Source of the DNA: Maribacter luteus
GTDB lineage: Bacteria > Bacteroidota > Bacteroidia > Flavobacteriales > Flavobacteriaceae
Reading direction: 5' to 3'
DNA: 64,000 nt
NCBI RefSeq assembly: GCF_009674825.1
Contig: NZ_WKJH01000002.1
Coordinates: forward strand, 62,001 to 126,000
The position numbers were made by a program, and so were the translations under genes. Positions within the stretch are counted from its first letter, which is position 1. Each line of letters opens with the position of its first letter. Positions 54,626-64,000 of the stretch are shown here, one piece after another. The notes under the pieces are model-generated. The model saw only the letters and a program-made list of their open reading frames with translations. It was not told the origin of the DNA and made no database searches.

Positions 54626-54655
54626 TTTGATTGGCATTGATTTTGCTCAGTTTTG
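54626..54655 (+). promoter_or_regulatory. Promoter of the alpha-2-macroglobulin gene
   Basis: TTTG (54626-54629), an 18-nt spacer and CAGTTTTG (54648-54655) match the Bacteroidota consensus with one mismatch. The alternative upstream start codon at 54653 lies inside this -7 box, which supports the ATG at 54674. Confidence 0.65.
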
Positions 54656-54673
54656 TTCTGTAATTTTATACTT

Positions 54674-57600
54674 ATGAAAAATCTCATTGTAGTATTAACG
54701 GTAATCTTGTTTTCACAAATGACGCACTCCCAAAAAAATAATGAATCGTACGATGTGTTATGGGGGGATGTTGCCCAATTCGAAAAGGAAGATTTAACCA
54801 AATCTGCCTTGGAAGTCGTACGGAAAATATCGAAAAAGGCGAAAAAAGAAAACAATTCCGGTCAAATCATAAAGTCACTCTTATATACCTCCAAATACGC
54901 ACTTACACTCGAGGAAGATGCCCAATTGACAATTATCAATGATTTCAAACAGGAAATATCGAAGGCGGAATCCCCCACCAAAAATGTTTTGGAAAGCTAT
55001 TTGGCCAATCTATATTGGCAATATTTTCAACAAAACAGGTATCAATTTTACAATAGGACCAAGACTGAAACCAAAATAGATTCGGTGGATTATAGAACGT
55101 GGGATGTTACGACTCTTTTTCAAGAGATAAAACATCACTTCGGTAATTCCCTGACTAATCCCAAGGCCTTACAAGAGATTGGAGTCGAAAGTTTTAAAGA
55201 GATCATAAACGACCAAAAAGGTTCGGAAACCTATCGCCCTACACTATTTGATATTCTGGCCCATACGGCGTTGGAATTTTATAAGACACAAGAAACGAAC
55301 ATCACCCGACCTGCGTACAAATTTGAAATCAGTGATCCTTCCCTTTTATGTGAGGCCCATGAATTTATAAAAGTAAAGGTAAACACAGAGGACAAAACCT
55401 CCCTACAGGCAAAAGCGCTTGAAGTATACCAGAAATTAATTGGTTTTCACCTCAGCAATAACAATCTAATGGCAATGGTCGATGTAGATATTGAACGCCT
55501 TAAATATGTACATCAAAATGCGATTTTCCCAGATAAAGAATTACACTATCTGGAAGTTTTACAGAATTCTTCCTCCGGAATCGCCAACGTTAAGGTTGCA
55601 AATCTTTACCAATATGAAGTCGCTTATTTGTACCAACAATGGGGAAGAACGTACCAAGCCAAAACCAACAATGAACATCAATGGAAATTGAAAGAGGCCG
55701 TTGCCATATGCGATGACATCATAAAGGAATCCCCAAAAGGCAAAGCAGCCGATAAAGCCAAGGACCTTAAGTCCAACATTCTTGAAACCAACCTACAACT
55801 AACGGCGGAACGTTTTATCCCCATTAACCGACCAGCCCGGATATTGGTCAATTACAAAAACATTAAAGGGTTAAAACTTTCTGCCTATACGATTACCGGC
55901 TCAGATCTGGAAAAACTGAATTCATTGTACCCAGAACCCAAGAAACTTGACTTCATCAAAAAATTGAAATTGGTGAAATCATGGGATACTGATTTAAAAA
56001 ACGAGGGCGATTATCAAAACCATAGTACTGAGGTTCTTATCCCTGAGCTGAACAACGGCATTTACGTTGTCCTGGCAACACCAAAAGATGAAAGTACTTC
56101 ATTTGCCTATTCCGATATTCAGGTTACCGATTTGGCCTTGGTCGAGACCCGCTCCACATCCGAACATCGTTTTCAAGTTATCGACAGGAACAATGGCCAA
56201 CCCAAAAAACAGGTAAAAGTAAAGTTTTCTTATCGAGAAAATTACGACGGAAAAACCTTGACAAAATCCTTCGTCACCGATGATCAGGGCCAAGTGAAAA
56301 TTGCGTTACCCAATAAACAATGGACCCGCATTCATACCACGATAACCTCAGGGGATGATACAGCGTATTTTGGGGAGTATTTTATCAATCAAAAAAGAAA
56401 TACAAGCAACAAGTCGAATATAAATTACAATGCCTTTTTATTTACCGATAGAAGCATCTATAGACCGGGGCAACCCTTATTTTATAAGGCTATTGCCATT
56501 TCCGGACAAAATGGTGAATCCAAAATACAACCGAATACAACAATAACGGTTGCATTGCGTGACGCCAATTACCAAGAGATAAGCTTACAAGAATCAACGA
56601 CCAATGAATTTGGTTCATTTACGGGGGAATTCATCCTACCCAATAACGGACTCACTGGTAATTATTCTCTGCAAGTACGTTCAAAGGCCATTAATATAAA
56701 TGGAGCTGTGAATTTCTCTGTGGAAGAGTACAAACGCCCAAAATTCGAAACGTCTTTTAACCCAATAACCACATCGGTAAAAGTCAATGATAGCGTAGTG
56801 GTTTCAGGGAAGGCCATGGCCTATGCCGGAAGCGCTATAACCGACGCCAAAGTAACCTATAGGGTAAAACGTATCGTGAATTTCCCGAGATGGTATTATT
56901 GGTTCCGACCTTATTTCAATAGCTCTCCCCAAGAAATAACCCATGGAGAAACGACTACTGATGCTTCCGGGAACTATGAAGTTAAATTTATGGCCATTCC
57001 CGACAAATCGGCCGATAGGGAAAGTATGCCCGTTTTCAATTATGAAATAAGCGCAGACGTTACCGATATTAACGGGGAAACACATAGTGCTACGACCACT
57101 GTCCGCGTAGGGTACCATACGTTAACCGCTAACATCGTGGTTGGCGAAACCATGGATAAGGATAAAAAAGACCATACAATTACCGTATACACCCATAACC
57201 TTAACGGTCAATCCGTACCTGCAAAGGGGACCCTGAAAATATACAAGCTAAAATCCCCTGCCCACGTATTGCGAAATAGGCCTTGGGAAGCCCCGGATTA
57301 TGCCGGTTTCACCGAAGAGGAATTTAGAAGGCTTTATCCGCATGATGCTTATACAAACGAAAATGACCAGACCCAATGGAAAAACGGGCAATTGGTAATG
57401 GGAAAATCTTTCGATACAGGTTCTTCCAATGAAATAAACCTTGGCAGCATTAAAAAATGGATTTCGGGGAAATACCGAATAACCCTTGAAACCAAGGATA
57501 AATTTGGACAAACGGTAAAAGACCTTACCCATACGACCCTTTTCAGTGAAAAGGACAAAACACTGGCAGACCATCAACTTTTCAGGATCAATACCAATAA

Positions 57601-60600
57601 GGATCAATACGTAATCGGGGAAACAGCTACCATAACGCTATCATCAAGTGCGGAAAATTTGGCGGTAACATTGGCAATAGAGAAAGACCGAAAGATTATC
57701 GACACCCGAATAATTCGCCTCAACAACAATTCAAAAACCATTAAAATCCCAGTTGAGCATGGCGATTTAGGCGGATTTTCAATTAACTATGGTTTTTCAG
57801 CCTACAACTCCTTTATTTCGAACACCCTGCCCATTACGGTTCCTTATCCCAAAACCGATTTGGAAATAGAAACCTTGACCTTTAGGAACAAGATAAAACC
57901 AGGAACCGATGAAACATGGAGTTTTAAAATAAAAGGACCCGAAGGAGAAAAGGTATCTGCCGAAGTTCTGGCCAGTATGTACGATGCCTCTTTGGATACT
58001 TTTAGAAGCCACTACTGGAGTTTTTATCCCATACATAAGCCCTACTATTATTCTAACTATAACAGTAATGCATACCAAAGTTTTGGGAATGCCTCATTTT
58101 TGGTCCACAACGACCAATCCCATGAAAATTGGTATACCCCCCAACACTATGACTCCTTTAATTGGTTTGGTCTGCATTTTGGGTATAACTATGGTATGTA
58201 CCTTCGAAAAAAGGTTATGAGAAGTGCCGCTCCCATGATGGCAATGGACATGGCCGAAGGGGAAGCTTTGAATGAGGAAATTGTGGCTGAATCCGATCTA
58301 GCCGGTTATGCTGCAGGTATTGAAGAAATAAACGCACCTGAAGCAAAAAGCAAGGAAAAAGAAAAGGAAGATGTCCAAGTACGAACAAACCTGCAGGAAA
58401 CGGCATTTTTCTTTCCCCAATTGCAAACCGACGAGGAGGGCAATGTATCATTCAGCTTTACCACACCCGAAGCTTTGACCCAATGGAAATTACAACTCTT
58501 GGCCCATACCAAGTCCTTACAAAGTGCGATGAGCACCTTGAAGACCGTTACTCAAAAGGAATTAATGGTTACACCCAATGTGCCCCGTTTTCTTCGTGAA
58601 GGGGACAAGATTACCATAAGTACCAAAATCGCCAATCTTACTGAGAGCAAATTGGAGGGACAGGCATTTATAGAACTGATCGATGCCATTTCCGGAAAAG
58701 AAATTTCTACAGAACTTTTACTTTCCGACTCAAAAACAGGAACAAAACAGGTTTCTTTTTCGGTGGATTCACTGGGGAACACCCAAGTTTCTTGGCAGCT
58801 TAAGATTCCTGCAGACCTGCAGGCCCTACAATTTAAAATCATTGCAAAAGCCGGTGATTTCAGTGATGGAGAACAAAATATGCTCCCGGTTTTGACCAAC
58901 CGTATGCTCGTAACCGAAACCTTACCCATGTGGGTTCGAAGCAACCAAACCAAGACTTTTACTTTGGATAAATTGAAAGACAATACCTCAACTACGCTCA
59001 AAAACCATAAACTTACCTTAGAAATAACCTCTAACCCTGCATGGTATGCCGTTCAGGCACTCCCCTACCTTATGGAGTACCCTTATGATTGCAACGAACA
59101 GGTTTTTTCAAGATATTACGCGAACTCATTGGCCAGTCATATCGCAAATAGTTCACCACGTATTCGTGAGGTTTTTGACCAATGGGCCAATTCAGATGCG
59201 TTATTGGGTAATTTGGAAAAGAACCAAGAATTGAAGGCACTCTTGATTCAGGAAACTCCCTGGCTACGGGATGCCCAATCGGAAACCGAACAGAAAAAAC
59301 GCATTGCCCTATTGTTCAATATGAACAAGATGAAAGAAGAACAAGCCAATGCCTTGAACAAACTCCGACAAAACCAAATGTCCAATGGGGCATGGGCATG
59401 GTTTAAAGGTGGAAGGGAAAACCGTTTTATAACACAACATATCATTACAGGTCTTGGTCATTTAAAAAGGCTTTCGGTAGTAACCAATGAAGACAAAAAG
59501 CAGCACGAAATGGTTATTAAGGCCGTTCGCTATTTAGATAATGAGTTCCTTGAGGAATATGAACAAATGAAAAAATATGCGACCGATATCAATGATGATC
59601 ACTTGAGCTATACACAATTGCATTATCTGTACATGCGAAGTTTCTTCGATGATATCAAAACCTCCAAAAAGGTTGCGAATATCATGGAATATTACAATGG
59701 TCAGGCCAAAAAGTATTGGACCAAAAGAAGTCTATATGCCAAAGGGATATTGGCTTTGGTGTTACACAGGAACAATGAACGATCAACTGCTGCCAAAATT
59801 CTACGTTCCCTGAAGGAAAACAGTATAAATTCAGAGGAAATGGGTATGTACTGGAAAGAAAATACTGGATCTTGGTATTGGCACCAAGCCCCAATTGAGA
59901 CCCAGGCATTACTGATTGAAGCATTTTCGGAAATCGAAAATGACATTACCACCATCGACAATCTTAAAATATGGTTATTGAAGAACAAACAGACCAATCA
60001 ATGGAAAACCACCAAAGCAACGACCGATGCAGTTTACTCCCTATTACTCCAAGGTAGTGATTGGCTCCCGGTCACAGATGCCGTGGATGTTTTGGTCGGT
60101 GGTAAAAAAATAGAACCTTCAAAAATGGAAAATGTACGTGTTGAAGCCGGTACAGGTTATTACAAAACATCCTGGGCCAACAATGAAATCACCTCAGATT
60201 TAGGAAGCGTACAACTTACCAAAAAAGGGAAGGGTATTGCTTGGGGCGCACTTTACTGGCAGTATTTTGAGGACTTGGATAAAATAACATCGGCCAAAAC
60301 CCCTTTACAACTAAAAAAGAAATTGTTTTTAAGGAACCATACCGATACCGGTGAGGAAATTTCAGAAATAACCCCTAAAACAGCTTTAAAGGTAGGGGAT
60401 CTTGTACGGGTACGTATAGAGCTGCGCTCTGACCGGAATATGGAATTCGTTCATATGAAAGATATGCGAGCAGCCGGTCTGGAACCTACAAATGTACTTT
60501 CCCGATATAAATGGCAAGATGGACTCGGCTATTATGAAAGCACGAAAGATGCAAGTACCAATTTCTTTTTCGACTATTTACCAAAAGGTGTTTATGTATT

Positions 60601-60724
60601 CGAATATGATCTTAGGGTGAACAATGCCGGTAACTTCAGTAATGGGATTACGACCATCCAAAGCATGTATGCCCCTGAGTTCAGTAGCCATTCGGAAGGG
60701 ATTCGTATTGAGGTGGACAATTAG
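54674..60724 (+). CDS. Alpha-2-macroglobulin family protein (bacterial protease trap)
   Basis: A 2016-aa exported protein. Start chosen at 54674 because MKNLIVVLTVILFSQMTHS is a clean signal peptide and the upstream ATG lies in the promoter. An N-terminal helical region (about 20-370) precedes macroglobulin beta domains (FTDRSIYRPGQPLFYKAIAI, VEEYKRPKFETSFN). A bait-like segment follows around 1110-1240: aromatic (YYYSNYNSNAYQSFGN), then Met/Ala-rich (MRSAAPMMAMDMAEGEA) and Lys/Glu-rich. The complement-like helical domain carries the thioester motif Cys1473-Asn-Glu-Gln in YPYDCNEQVFSRYYA. It should entrap attacking proteases in the periplasm or at the surface. No pbpC lies beside it. Longer than enterobacterial relatives (about 1650). 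Confidence 0.92.
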   Translation: MKNLIVVLTVILFSQMTHSQKNNESYDVLWGDVAQFEKEDLTKSALEVVRKISKKAKKENNSGQIIKSLLYTSKYALTLEEDAQLTIINDFKQEISKAESPTKNVLESYLANLYWQYFQQNRYQFYNRTKTETKIDSVDYRTWDVTTLFQEIKHHFGNSLTNPKALQEIGVESFKEIINDQKGSETYRPTLFDILAHTALEFYKTQETNITRPAYKFEISDPSLLCEAHEFIKVKVNTEDKTSLQAKALEVYQKLIGFHLSNNNLMAMVDVDIERLKYVHQNAIFPDKELHYLEVLQNSSSGIANVKVANLYQYEVAYLYQQWGRTYQAKTNNEHQWKLKEAVAICDDIIKESPKGKAADKAKDLKSNILETNLQLTAERFIPINRPARILVNYKNIKGLKLSAYTITGSDLEKLNSLYPEPKKLDFIKKLKLVKSWDTDLKNEGDYQNHSTEVLIPELNNGIYVVLATPKDESTSFAYSDIQVTDLALVETRSTSEHRFQVIDRNNGQPKKQVKVKFSYRENYDGKTLTKSFVTDDQGQVKIALPNKQWTRIHTTITSGDDTAYFGEYFINQKRNTSNKSNINYNAFLFTDRSIYRPGQPLFYKAIAISGQNGESKIQPNTTITVALRDANYQEISLQESTTNEFGSFTGEFILPNNGLTGNYSLQVRSKAININGAVNFSVEEYKRPKFETSFNPITTSVKVNDSVVVSGKAMAYAGSAITDAKVTYRVKRIVNFPRWYYWFRPYFNSSPQEITHGETTTDASGNYEVKFMAIPDKSADRESMPVFNYEISADVTDINGETHSATTTVRVGYHTLTANIVVGETMDKDKKDHTITVYTHNLNGQSVPAKGTLKIYKLKSPAHVLRNRPWEAPDYAGFTEEEFRRLYPHDAYTNENDQTQWKNGQLVMGKSFDTGSSNEINLGSIKKWISGKYRITLETKDKFGQTVKDLTHTTLFSEKDKTLADHQLFRINTNKDQYVIGETATITLSSSAENLAVTLAIEKDRKIIDTRIIRLNNNSKTIKIPVEHGDLGGFSINYGFSAYNSFISNTLPITVPYPKTDLEIETLTFRNKIKPGTDETWSFKIKGPEGEKVSAEVLASMYDASLDTFRSHYWSFYPIHKPYYYSNYNSNAYQSFGNASFLVHNDQSHENWYTPQHYDSFNWFGLHFGYNYGMYLRKKVMRSAAPMMAMDMAEGEALNEEIVAESDLAGYAAGIEEINAPEAKSKEKEKEDVQVRTNLQETAFFFPQLQTDEEGNVSFSFTTPEALTQWKLQLLAHTKSLQSAMSTLKTVTQKELMVTPNVPRFLREGDKITISTKIANLTESKLEGQAFIELIDAISGKEISTELLLSDSKTGTKQVSFSVDSLGNTQVSWQLKIPADLQALQFKIIAKAGDFSDGEQNMLPVLTNRMLVTETLPMWVRSNQTKTFTLDKLKDNTSTTLKNHKLTLEITSNPAWYAVQALPYLMEYPYDCNEQVFSRYYANSLASHIANSSPRIREVFDQWANSDALLGNLEKNQELKALLIQETPWLRDAQSETEQKKRIALLFNMNKMKEEQANALNKLRQNQMSNGAWAWFKGGRENRFITQHIITGLGHLKRLSVVTNEDKKQHEMVIKAVRYLDNEFLEEYEQMKKYATDINDDHLSYTQLHYLYMRSFFDDIKTSKKVANIMEYYNGQAKKYWTKRSLYAKGILALVLHRNNERSTAAKILRSLKENSINSEEMGMYWKENTGSWYWHQAPIETQALLIEAFSEIENDITTIDNLKIWLLKNKQTNQWKTTKATTDAVYSLLLQGSDWLPVTDAVDVLVGGKKIEPSKMENVRVEAGTGYYKTSWANNEITSDLGSVQLTKKGKGIAWGALYWQYFEDLDKITSAKTPLQLKKKLFLRNHTDTGEEISEITPKTALKVGDLVRVRIELRSDRNMEFVHMKDMRAAGLEPTNVLSRYKWQDGLGYYESTKDASTNFFFDYLPKGVYVFEYDLRVNNAGNFSNGITTIQSMYAPEFSSHSEGIRIEVDN

Positions 60725-60826: not shown

Positions 60827-61558
60827 CTATAAACTCATTCGATCTTTGAAAAGATAAGATTGCCTTCGTGATACTTCCACTTCTTCACCGTTATGCATGG
60901 TCAATTTTAATTTACCGTTGAACCAAGGCACCAATTCTTGGATAAAATTGGTATTTATAATCTGCTGGCGATTTGCTCTAAAGAAGTGTTTTTCGGGAAG
61001 TTTTCCCTCTATTTGATTTAAAGATTTGTACAACATGGGCCTTTGATCTTGAAAGAATACACGGGTGTAATTACCCACAATTTCCAAATGGGAAATATCG
61101 CCGATTTTTATCAACCAACACTTTTCTCCATCCTTTATGAATATCTGACTACTTCCCGTCAATCGCTCTTCGTTAACCACCGTCTCGCTATTCGATGCTT
61201 CTAATTTAACCTTCACTTTATCAATGGCCAATTCAAAACGCTTTTCATTGATAGGTTTCAAAAGGTAATCGAGTGCATTATATTCAAAAGATTTTATCGC
61301 ATACTCGTCATAAGCCGTAGTAAATACCGTAATAGGCACTTCATCAAGCATTTCCAAGAGTTCAAAACCATCTTTTTCGGGCATATTAATATCCAATAAC
61401 AAAAGGTCGGGTTTTACTTCCTCGATTAATTCTACACCATCATCAACGTTCTCAGCTTCACCGACCATATCAATTTCCGGATGGTTTTTTATAAGTTCTT
61501 TTAATTCATTACGTGCTAATCTTGAATCTTCAACGATTACGGTTTTTATGCGTTTCAT
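60827..61558 (-). CDS. LytTR-family DNA-binding response regulator
   Basis: A 243-aa regulator. The receiver domain (1-125) has acidic Glu10 and Asp11, phospho-acceptor Asp56 in LLLLDINMP, the Thr of FTTAYDEYA and the Lys of LLKPINEKR. The LytTR DNA-binding domain (about 137-240) shows ISHLEIVGNYTRVFF, FFRANRQQIINTNFI and EVSRRQSYLFKDR. It should bind direct repeats upstream of target genes when phosphorylated by the adjacent LytS-type kinase. Its start overlaps the kinase stop by 4 bp. Targets are unknown. Confidence 0.95.
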   Translation of the reverse strand: MKRIKTVIVEDSRLARNELKELIKNHPEIDMVGEAENVDDGVELIEEVKPDLLLLDINMPEKDGFELLEMLDEVPITVFTTAYDEYAIKSFEYNALDYLLKPINEKRFELAIDKVKVKLEASNSETVVNEERLTGSSQIFIKDGEKCWLIKIGDISHLEIVGNYTRVFFQDQRPMLYKSLNQIEGKLPEKHFFRANRQQIINTNFIQELVPWFNGKLKLTMHNGEEVEVSRRQSYLFKDRMSL

Positions 61559-62607
61559 GACAATGGAATTTTTATGTTGGCTACGACCTCACCTTCAACC
61601 TCCTCTAAGGAAAAAGAAGCTTTATGACCATGTAAAAGGCGAAGGCGCTGTTTAATATTTTTAAGTCCTAATTGGGTGGAATCTTGAGCAATTCTCAATT
61701 TGCCCGTATTGGCTACGTTTATAAAAAGATCCTGGCCCTCTTTCTTTATCTTTAATGATATTGTACCACCTCCTTTTAAATTTGCGATACCATGTTTAGC
61801 GGCATTTTCTACCAACAACTGCACAATCATTGGTGGTATCAGCAGATTACGTGTGTCCGGATCTATATCCTCAACATACTGTAATCGATCCTCCATCTGT
61901 ATTTTCGAAAGGGCAATATAGTTTTCCACCATTTCCAACTCTTCGTTCAAGGGTATGGCGTCTATCGTATTCTTTTCCTGTGCAAATTCCAACATCTCTG
62001 AAAGCTTACCGATCACATCCCTTGATCTCTCAACATCTTCCAACATTAAACCCCTGATATTATTCAGGCTATTGAACATGAAATGGGGGTTTACCTGTCC
62101 TTTTAAAGTATTTAGTTGGGCTTCTCGCAGTGTAGCGTTCAATTCTAAATTTCGTAGATTATTCTTATTCGCCTCTAAAACGAATTTTACGACAAAGTAA
62201 ATCATGGTCCATCCGAAAATAGTAACCATAATATCGAAAATATTATAAAAGAACCCTGTATTTTCAGCAATCCATTCTAACTCTGATTCGGTCCTTGTCC
62301 AATATAAATCATAAATTTCAGTCGATATCGAGTCCAATGTATAGAATAACAAACTACAGCCGAGAAAGGCAATCAATAAACGGATGATACTTTTACGACC
62401 AAAAACTTCCGTATCTATATTATGCTTTAAGTAGACACGATAAATAGAGGTAACAACGACCCCTATTATTCCGCCAACAATCAAACTGTATACTTTAAGG
62501 GTCGTACTGAATTCAGAAATAATCAAAACAAAACTACTAACGGCATACCAACCTACAAACTGTAAGGACCAAAACAAAATCTCTTTTTTCGAATTATCCG
62601 TTATCAT
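61555..62607 (-). CDS. LytS-type sensor histidine kinase, intact
   Basis: A 350-aa membrane kinase with four predicted transmembrane helices (about 10-150) and no large sensor domain, a coiled linker (FVLEANKNNLRNLELNATLR), and a His_kinase domain with the phospho-acceptor His175 in QVNPHFMFNSLNNIRGL. The ATPase part has the N-box LLVENAAKHGI and G-box QLGLKNIKQRLRLLHG. All expected catalytic signatures are present. It overlaps the response-regulator gene by 4 bp and the upstream paralogue by 4 bp, so all three are translationally coupled. Confidence 0.94.
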   Translation of the reverse strand: MITDNSKKEILFWSLQFVGWYAVSSFVLIISEFSTTLKVYSLIVGGIIGVVVTSIYRVYLKHNIDTEVFGRKSIIRLLIAFLGCSLLFYTLDSISTEIYDLYWTRTESELEWIAENTGFFYNIFDIMVTIFGWTMIYFVVKFVLEANKNNLRNLELNATLREAQLNTLKGQVNPHFMFNSLNNIRGLMLEDVERSRDVIGKLSEMLEFAQEKNTIDAIPLNEELEMVENYIALSKIQMEDRLQYVEDIDPDTRNLLIPPMIVQLLVENAAKHGIANLKGGGTISLKIKKEGQDLFINVANTGKLRIAQDSTQLGLKNIKQRLRLLHGHKASFSLEEVEGEVVANIKIPLS

Positions 62608-63680
62608 ACAACTGTAGTTATTTCATTTTGAATTATTGAAGGAATCATCATTGCCCATACATGCCGCCCATTGCGCAAGCCATTTTTCAAAAGTGCATTA
62701 TGGCCATACAACAACCATAATCGTTGTTCAATACTTTTCCGAATTAAATTACCTTCTTTTTCAGATATATTTTGATTTCCCCCCTCAACTTCAAAAAAAA
62801 GCATTCCGTTTTCCAAGGTAATATGCATTTCACTTGGTTTATCCCCCAACCATAGTTCTTTGCTGCATAACTCCACAAAGTTCAACAATAGCATTGGTGG
62901 TATCCCCAGATGAAGTATAGATTCATCCTTGTTGGGGTCAACAAATAAATTAAAGGGTTTATCCAGATTAGTCAAATCGATAAAAATCCGAACCATCTCA
63001 AGTTCCTCATTCAATTCTACTGTATCGACAGTATTTTTAGTTAAGGAATAACGGAGCAGTTCCGATAATTCGGTAAGCATTAGTCTAGATTTCTTTACAT
63101 CGACCAACATCAACTCTTTGATACAATTTAATGTGCGGGCCATAAATTTGGCATTAACATGCCCTTTTAAGGTGTTTAATTGTGCTTTTTTCACCTCTTC
63201 CCTAAGTTTTAACCTATGTATTCTAGCGTTATTGTAATTCACAAAAGTTTTGATTCCAAAATACAAGACGGTCCAACCCAATAATATTATAAAGGGTATA
63301 ACAAAGAAAATAGCCTTTGCGAATTCATTGGGTTTTTCCTTACTTATCGCTTTTGGTACCTCAAAAGCGGTAAGCAAATAACCGGAGAGCGCGGCAAAAC
63401 CCATAAACAAACCGGTATAAATTAAACTAGATAGAAGCACCAGCCCGATTGTAATAAAGACCTTTTTTAAATCAAAAGACCCAAACCCGATCCATTTTCT
63501 AAGAAACCAACGATGTAATGAGGTTGCTAAAAGCCCAGATAAAAACACGGTAAGAACCATAAACAATTTATCCAATGGGTGGTCATGATTATCCCCTTGG
63601 GATAAAACAATCAGCCCTATAAGCCCCCAAGCGAAAAACTGTATGACCCAAAATATATGTTTGACAAAAAATCTTACCAT
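62604..63680 (-). CDS. LytS-type histidine-kinase paralogue lacking catalytic residues (pseudokinase)
   Basis: A 358-aa protein when started at the ATG at 63680 (MVRFFVKHIFWVIQFFAWGL). A longer frame to 63794 exists but would overlap the upstream gene and adds polar residues. Four transmembrane helices and the same linker as the intact kinase (KAQLNTLKGHVN) are kept. The H-box reads NAKFMARTLN, with Lys178 in place of His. The N-box reads LLNFVELCSKELWLG, without Asn, and the G-box is NLIRKSIEQRLWLLYG, without the GxxN motif. It therefore cannot be an ordinary autokinase. The frame is intact and coupled (4 bp overlap) to the intact kinase, so it is probably a maintained regulatory partner. 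Confidence 0.85.
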   Translation of the reverse strand: MVRFFVKHIFWVIQFFAWGLIGLIVLSQGDNHDHPLDKLFMVLTVFLSGLLATSLHRWFLRKWIGFGSFDLKKVFITIGLVLLSSLIYTGLFMGFAALSGYLLTAFEVPKAISKEKPNEFAKAIFFVIPFIILLGWTVLYFGIKTFVNYNNARIHRLKLREEVKKAQLNTLKGHVNAKFMARTLNCIKELMLVDVKKSRLMLTELSELLRYSLTKNTVDTVELNEELEMVRIFIDLTNLDKPFNLFVDPNKDESILHLGIPPMLLLNFVELCSKELWLGDKPSEMHITLENGMLFFEVEGGNQNISEKEGNLIRKSIEQRLWLLYGHNALLKNGLRNGRHVWAMMIPSIIQNEITTVV

Positions 63681-63712: not shown

Positions 63713-64000
63713 TTAAACCGTTATGATTCTTTTTCGTGTTAAAGCATAATAAATAACATAGCCCCAACCCAATAAACCATGGACAAGCACCCATTTAAAT
63801 GGATTTTTTTTCTCCAAAGAAGCAATTAGGGCAAAGATAGTACCAAAAAACAGTCCGCTTTTAATATAGAACACAAGTAGCATCCCAATAGAGTATCCTA
63901 AATAATAACCCCATTTATATGCAGGACCCAAAGCTGTATTATCCCCGACTTCTTCTAAAAAACCTAGATGGGCAACAGAACCAATGATAAGAATCAATAC
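63713..64000 (-). CDS. Small membrane protein, 5' end beyond the window
   Basis: The reverse-strand frame is open to the window edge, and the only start inside is a TTG at 63997, so the true start is probably outside. At least 95 codons are visible, with two or three hydrophobic helices (AYKWGYYLGYSIGMLLVFYI, SGLFFGTIFALIASLE, VLVHGLLGWGYVIYYALT). No family was recognised. It lies 32 bp upstream of the pseudokinase and probably belongs to the same operon. Confidence 0.65.
   Translation of the reverse strand, partial: VLILIIGSVAHLGFLEEVGDNTALGPAYKWGYYLGYSIGMLLVFYIKSGLFFGTIFALIASLEKKNPFKWVLVHGLLGWGYVIYYALTRKRIITV

Follow-up and report, generated by a model that had tools for sequence, protein, structure and literature searches.

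The window analyzed here, a 64,000-nucleotide stretch of the Maribacter luteus genome, ends in a row of minus-strand genes that encode a small membrane protein (family c15), a pseudokinase, a partner kinase, and a LytTR response regulator, in that order (Table 1). The pseudokinase and partner kinase genes overlap by 4 bp, as do the partner kinase and regulator genes. In line with the preliminary description of this DNA, the pseudokinase frame is full length and its overlap with the partner kinase gene is real, and the receiver aspartate of the regulator is D56. The open frame of the pseudokinase could also start at position 63794 (396 aa), but it would then overlap the upstream gene, and most aligned relatives start near position 63680.

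Table 1. Features of the operon at the window end and candidate regulator sites beside it. Positions are those of the window, except those marked L009, which belong to the M. luteus locus and lie just outside the window.
Feature	Position	Strand	Remarks
Pseudokinase (358 aa)	62604..63680	-	Membrane helices (predicted), hairpin resembling DHp, degenerate CA domain
Partner kinase (350 aa)	61555..62607	-	NPHF H-box; N-box and G-box present
LytTR response regulator (243 aa)	60827..61558	-	Receiver Asp56 at 61391-61393
Small membrane protein, family c15 (122 aa)	63713..64000	-	Runs past window end
Pseudokinase His174 (kinase position 171)	63159..63161	-	One helical turn before lost His
Pseudokinase Lys178, replacing phospho-accepting His	63147..63149	-	Alignment with partner His175
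Pseudokinase Arg210-Tyr-Ser212 (kinase positions 207-209)	63045..63053	-	Invariant in 23/23 pseudokinases
Pseudokinase Leu271, replacing N-box Asn	62868..62870	-	Alignment
Partner His175, phospho-acceptor by family	62083..62085	-	Alignment
Partner Glu207-Phe208-Ala209, replacing Arg-Tyr-Ser of single kinases	61981..61989	-	Alignment
LytTR-like direct repeats (candidate)	L009 10658-10747		Before ankyrin gene
LytTR-like direct repeat, weaker (candidate)	L009 9659-9696		Before 116-aa c15 membrane protein gene

Both kinase-like proteins, which account for two of the 12 PF06580 matches in their genome, scored well above the curated cut-off of this profile (25.2 bits). The partner reached 77.6 bits and the pseudokinase 48.2 bits, so the homology of the latter is not due to chance. 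Among the pseudokinases of one alignment (A1), 18/18 matched PF06580 at E values up to 0.1, while HATPase_c was matched at this threshold by 16/27 kinases versus 0/18 pseudokinases. Within the window pair, only the partner kinase matched HATPase_c, with 19.1 bits, under the cut-off of 26.4. Alignment of the two proteins confirmed the catalytic losses that had been read from the sequence: Lys178 of the pseudokinase stands at the place of the kinase His175, Leu271 at that of the N-box Asn (FVELCSKELW versus LVENAAKHGI in the partner), and no G-box glycine is present (GNLIRKSIEQR versus TQLGLKNIKQR). Across 23 pseudokinases, the H-box His was found in 0/23, the N-box Asn in 1/23, and the G-box Gly in 0/23 (21 of these being alignment gaps), and all three residues were present in 23/23 partners. 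No Pfam sensor domain scored above its cut-off in either window kinase, and 5TM-5TMR_LYT (PF07694), the mark of LytS proper, gave no match in either at E values up to 0.1. The AlphaFold models of both proteins predict four long helices before and into the DHp domain, which agrees with the four-helix membrane part described earlier. Confidence was higher for the partner model (pLDDT, 81.4; pTM, 0.51; pLDDT of the H-box stretch, 62-67) than for the pseudokinase model (pLDDT, 76.9; pTM, 0.48), and the latter matched kinase structures such as GanS weakly (TM-score of 0.35 over the query).

The gene order seen in the window (pseudokinase, kinase with intact His, LytTR regulator) recurs in relatives. 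The tandem pseudokinase-kinase order was found at 23 loci in 23 Flavobacteriaceae genomes, with the regulator also present at 23/23; order and strand do not vary among the 23 pairs, whose intergenic gaps are -46 to +7 bp when the leftmost start is used. In all, 70 loci were examined, 23 tandem and 47 with a single kinase. In a search of 397 genomes of the family with the pseudokinase, in which up to five candidates per genome were scored, at least 174 genomes had a match at an E value of 1e-10, and the best 44 loci (44 genomes) of these 174 matched genomes were examined together with the M. luteus locus. An NPHF kinase was present at 45/45 of these loci, a regulator at 44/45, and an upstream paralogue without the His at 7. 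These counts cover the 45 loci; among the 129 other matched genomes (E values of about 1e-16 or weaker), a more diverged pseudokinase could be present. The one locus without a regulator (L071) is cut by a contig end, and at two others (L053 and L072) the regulator lies nearly 1 kb away. A search of 395 genomes at the level of the order with the pseudokinase profile, again with up to five candidates per genome, gave at least 26 matches in 21 genomes at an E value of 1e-40; beyond the pairs of M. luteus and of three known carriers, these 26 loci held only NPHF kinases.

Carriers are unevenly spread, with 1/12 genomes in the genus of M. luteus and 5/10, 3/9, 10/18, 1/1, and 3/8 genomes in five other genera. 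In the other 11 genomes of the genus, three of which are less than 90% complete, the best match to the pseudokinase query had an E value of 2e-15, and two matches in this range were other kinases. Since the same query found the M. luteus partner kinase at an E value of 1e-37, the partner kinase seems to be absent from these congeners too, and this pattern of matches suggests loss or transfer of the operon. We also observed, tail to tail with the operon, a gene for a 2023-aa protein (window positions 54653-60724, plus strand), which we take to be alpha-2-macroglobulin-like; its cluster (c4) was also present at 19/23 tandem and 20/47 single loci.

A tree was built from 93 rows; in it, one branch (100/100) separated all 23 pseudokinases from the rest, and another (100/99) did so for the 23 partners. 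The pseudokinase clade is of single origin; its inner order is unsure because some of its branches are long and the long ones are joined. The free tree did not contain a clade made up of pseudokinases and partners, and such a clade was not rejected (p-AU, 0.419), so that the pseudokinases may descend from a duplication of the partner lineage. Pseudokinase and partner distances were correlated (Mantel r, 0.869; 0/9999 permutations as high). The two proteins are co-inherited, and this correlation reflects shared descent, not contact.

The preliminary description had held that an intact kinase at this position in close relatives, together with an eroding copy, would mean simple decay. No such relative was found among the 23 tandem loci, where none of the upstream copies carries the His and 23/23 frames are full length. 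dN/dS was attempted on 13 pairs and was computable for 10 pseudokinase, 9 kinase, and 10 regulator comparisons, the rest being saturated; pseudokinase omega in 10/13 pairs ranged from 0.073 to 0.206, although several computed pairs had a dS near 2 and are unreliable. In six comparisons among four close genomes, the pseudokinase had an omega of 0.138-0.206, the kinase one of 0.055-0.081, and the regulator one of 0.024-0.071; the pseudokinase is thus genuinely constrained, though less so than its neighbors. When the pseudokinase was split by domain in four pairs, omega was 0.13-0.40 in the membrane part, 0.04-0.08 in DHp, and 0.12-0.20 in CA (computable in three of the four). Within one pair of loci (L130 and L132), dS differed between genes (0.20, 0.53, and 1.21), which may be due to recombination. 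Decay of a duplicated kinase would fit the long pseudokinase branches, and it would fit the six comparisons, in which omega was roughly two- to fourfold higher than for the partner. However, with full-length frames throughout, computable omega values of at most 0.21, no upstream His, and a strictly conserved DHp helix 2, we regard simple decay as wholly improbable and reject it.

Residue conservation was compared among the 23 pseudokinases, 23 partners, and 47 single kinases, with residues numbered by their position in the partner. The phospho-accepting His175 was present in 23/23 partners and 47/47 single kinases and in 0/23 pseudokinases, which have Q, E, K, N, D, or T in its place. In DHp helix 2, the pattern was the opposite: Arg207 was kept in 23/23 pseudokinases and 47/47 single kinases but in 0/23 partners (17 Gln, 6 Glu), and Ser209 in 23/23 pseudokinases and 47/47 single kinases but in 1/23 partners. 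Among positions at least 95% conserved in single kinases, no others combined retention in at least 90% of pseudokinases with retention in less than half of the partners; 21 such positions showed the reverse. Averaged over positions at least 90% conserved in single kinases, retention in pseudokinases versus partners was 0.67 versus 0.95 in helix 1 (27 positions), 0.93 versus 0.74 in helix 2 (12 positions), and 0.50 versus 0.98 in CA (36 positions). A Mann-Whitney test of helix 1 against helix 2, which treats positions as independent and disregards relatedness, gave a P value of 0.002.

The equivalent of Arg207 was also found in 32/32 PF06580 kinases from the 30 top-scoring loci of a search of 118 genomes of the phylum, in 8/8 other PF06580 kinases of the M. 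luteus genome (two further ones were left out), and in the aligned GanS chain 6swj. A search of named genomes with the single pseudokinase protein found no relative, and a search with the pseudokinase alignment found 160 relatives, the best 80 of which comprised 69 single and 11 tandem loci. The tandem loci included those of Cellulophaga baltica DSM 24729, two uncultured Croceitalea, and one uncultured Maribacter. All 11 show the residue pattern described above, and ten of them look already counted; the search patterns included the helix 2 motif, which biases the pseudokinase and single rows toward this motif but not the adjacent partner rows.

A further difference lies one turn of the helix ahead of the lost His. 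Among the pseudokinases, 22/23 have His at position 171 (L047 has Gln), and 23/23 partners and 47/47 single kinases have Gln there, so that many pseudokinases read GHINPQF in place of GQINPHF; among the 32 kinases from across the phylum, this position is Gln in 27, Lys in 4, Arg in 1, and His in none. Separately, two loci from other families of the same phylum (L276 and L283) hold other tandem PF06580 pairs, in which both copies keep the His and the Arg and one copy has an altered N-box (VEDALRD and VQNAVKH, respectively); such pairs may mark a separate beginning of a kinase-dead partner.

Because the partner has lost Arg207 and Ser209 and the pseudokinase strictly keeps both, the losses are reciprocal. 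The original picture of an intact kinase with a dead paralogue thus holds for the paralogue but not for the kinase, and a reading in which an intact kinase is merely modulated is incomplete. The reciprocal loss sits on two clades and therefore represents essentially one ancient event in each, followed by long conservation, rather than 23 independent events.

These patterns make it probable that the pseudokinase and its partner make up an obligate heterodimeric sensor that has a single composite site for phosphotransfer. In the arrangement that we infer, which comprises dimerization, action of Arg207 at the His site, phosphotransfer, and DNA binding, the partner would supply the phospho-accepting His on DHp helix 1 and the ATP-binding domain, and the pseudokinase would supply DHp helix 2, with its Arg and Ser opposite the His, as well as the other half of the membrane sensor. 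A symmetric dimer has two phosphotransfer sites; here the one made of partner helix 1 and pseudokinase helix 2 would be complete, and the second would be dead on both sides. Phosphate would pass to Asp56 of the LytTR regulator, which would act on direct-repeat sites before neighboring genes. In the single-chain model of the partner, His175 and position 207 are predicted to lie 16 residues either side of the DHp hairpin turn. If Arg207 and Ser209 served the His of their own chain, their loss from the partner and their retention in a protein without the His would be hard to explain. If they served the His of the other chain, a heterodimer would keep one complete site and lose the other on both sides, as seen.

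Other readings of the same residues were considered. The changes of His to Q/E/K and of Arg to Q/E might do no more than block self-pairing, so that the heterodimer arose by specialization of the interface and Arg207 has a structural role outside the active site. Consistent with this, the replacements change charge at positions level with each other, and an acidic pseudokinase residue 175 was found with 0/6 Glu207 partners and 8/17 Gln207 partners, a charge match that comprises two independent changes and is too small for significance. However, the invariance of Arg207 in 47 single kinases and in 32/32 kinases across the phylum is as expected of a catalytic or docking role, and Ser209 was lost too, which makes a purely interfacial explanation unlikely. 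The conserved His at position 171, found in 22/23 pseudokinases where 70/70 partners and single kinases have Gln and 0/32 kinases across the phylum have His, could be a shifted phospho-acceptor (His174 in pseudokinase numbering) that the partner phosphorylates in trans and that contributes to phosphotransfer. Its absence from the L047 pseudokinase and the altered geometry that a shift of one turn would bring leave this idea very improbable.

Alternatively, a kinase homodimer might work by itself, with the pseudokinase tuning it through inactive or altered complexes, as RetS and DivL do, or sensing a second signal. Pseudokinases that tune another kinase are known (DivL and RetS; PMC9491836), RcsD, with its inactive kinase domain, forms homodimers (PMC13317618), and in 3/4 of the domain-split pairs the fastest-evolving region of the pseudokinase is its membrane part (in the fourth, the CA omega was not computable). 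This account leaves unexplained why the partner lost Arg207 and Ser209 while 23/23 pseudokinases kept them, and we consider it quite unlikely. Of the two roles first proposed for the pseudokinase in a sensor with one kinase subunit, dimer partner or signal-sensing modulator, a dedicated dimer partner is accordingly the best reading, and that of a modulator beside an intact kinase falls short in view of the reciprocal loss.

The surroundings of the operon were compared between tandem and single loci. A small membrane protein (c15) was encoded near 13/23 tandem versus 0/47 single loci, an ankyrin-repeat protein (c7, with secretion judged by eye from its N-terminus) near 14/23 versus 0/47, and a family without a Pfam match over the cut-off (c9) near 15/23 versus 1/47. 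Full-length c15 was found in 5/397 genomes of the family, all five of them pseudokinase carriers; 2/7 carriers in this set have no full-length copy, and partial C-terminal matches occur in 9 further genomes. Immediately upstream of the pseudokinase in the M. luteus locus (L009 7714-9582), a CAAX-protease-like gene (PF02517) lies between two genes for c15 membrane proteins that share 27% identity.

A direct repeat with a 21-bp period, around ACCGTTGGTCATA, lies upstream of c7 in the 11 loci examined of the 14 (at most one mismatch). Its first half is more variable, reading CCGTTCG in many loci and CCATTTG in M. luteus. A matrix built from the 11 c7 sites gave 77 matches in 23/23 tandem loci and 55 in 32/47 single loci, and three shuffles of the tandem loci gave 0 matches each. 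When the M. luteus site was left out of the matrix, 23/23 tandem and 29/47 single loci were still matched; two runs of Markov controls for the tandem loci produced 1 match each, and one run for the single loci produced 0. Above 14 bits, the M. luteus locus has three matches: the ankyrin gene is preceded by one at 33.2 and one at 16.4, and the 116-aa c15 gene by one at 15.7. A single match of this strength turned up across ten Markov controls of the locus, so the two weaker sites are not firm alone. The direct-repeat pattern had 0 matches within the window and 2 in the M. luteus locus. Single-kinase loci often carry the motif before the kinase or neighboring genes, and it is therefore not peculiar to the tandem arrangement. 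Judged from these sites, the ankyrin and small membrane protein genes are probable targets of the regulator. In four other loci, the ankyrin gene forms head-to-tail arrays of 5 (L130), 7 (L132), 5 (L133), and 4 (L134) copies; among the matches listed, a regulator-like direct repeat precedes at least 20 of these 21 copies.

Most histidine kinases are symmetric homodimers, and it is consequently hard to tell which subunit gives which residue to each phosphotransfer site. In the present pair, evolution has seemingly split the site between two genes, so that the contribution of each subunit could be tested by single replacements in either gene. The pair also points to the very highly conserved helix 2 Arg as a residue worth testing in PF06580 kinases, and it connects a dead kinase with a candidate site of regulation and with target genes. 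More tentatively, it may represent a natural kinase with a single composite site, built from helix 1 and the ATPase domain of one protein and helix 2 of its dead paralogue, possibly with the shifted His taking part. No description of this kinase/pseudokinase pair was found in the open-licence literature searched.

Among known systems, FasB and FasC are AgrC-like kinases that are not known to belong to PF06580, and FasA is a LytTR regulator. By analogy of arrangement, FasB/FasC of group A Streptococcus is the nearest working analogue of the pseudokinase/partner pair: as at 23/23 tandem loci, two adjacent kinase-like genes accompany one response regulator, and two-hybrid assays show hetero- but not homodimers (PMC12675982). 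In the passages cited, its authors propose that FasB gives the kinase domain and FasC the key His, H246 (PMC12675982), whereas in the division proposed here from sequence the His and the kinase domain would lie in one subunit and the helix 2 residues would come from the other. DivL and an evolved ChrS pseudokinase of Corynebacterium glutamicum, which are non-catalytic kinase relatives, and RetS, an inhibitory kinase relative, act on another kinase; we liken them to the present pseudokinase by description, not by sequence, and the cited account of them does not describe a reciprocal loss in the partner (PMC9491836). RcsC/RcsD likewise combines an active kinase with a homologue whose kinase domain is inactive in one pathway, although RcsD carries an Hpt domain, unlike the pseudokinase system of the window. 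The authors observed RcsD homodimers and dispute a 1:1 heterodimer with RcsC (PMC13317618, a preprint), which makes this pair, by analogy, a counter-example to the heterodimer reading.

BtsS/BtsR (PMC10653868) and YpdA/YpdB (PMC5552118) also join a LytS-type kinase to a LytTR regulator, and BtsS dimerizes and is phosphorylated on His382. As described in these sources, however, each has one kinase gene with 5TM-5TMR_LYT and GAF input, in contrast to the window kinases with no Pfam sensor match above a cut-off. AlgZ/AlgR of Pseudomonas aeruginosa is close in kinase architecture, AlgZ having 358 aa, four predicted membrane helices, and a PHFLFN H-box, but the passages cited describe one kinase gene and mention no pseudokinase (PMC4064291). 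The AlgR site given there (PMC4064291), CCGTTCGTC, resembles the direct repeat upstream of c7, with its half-sites CCGTTCG and CCGTTGGTC.
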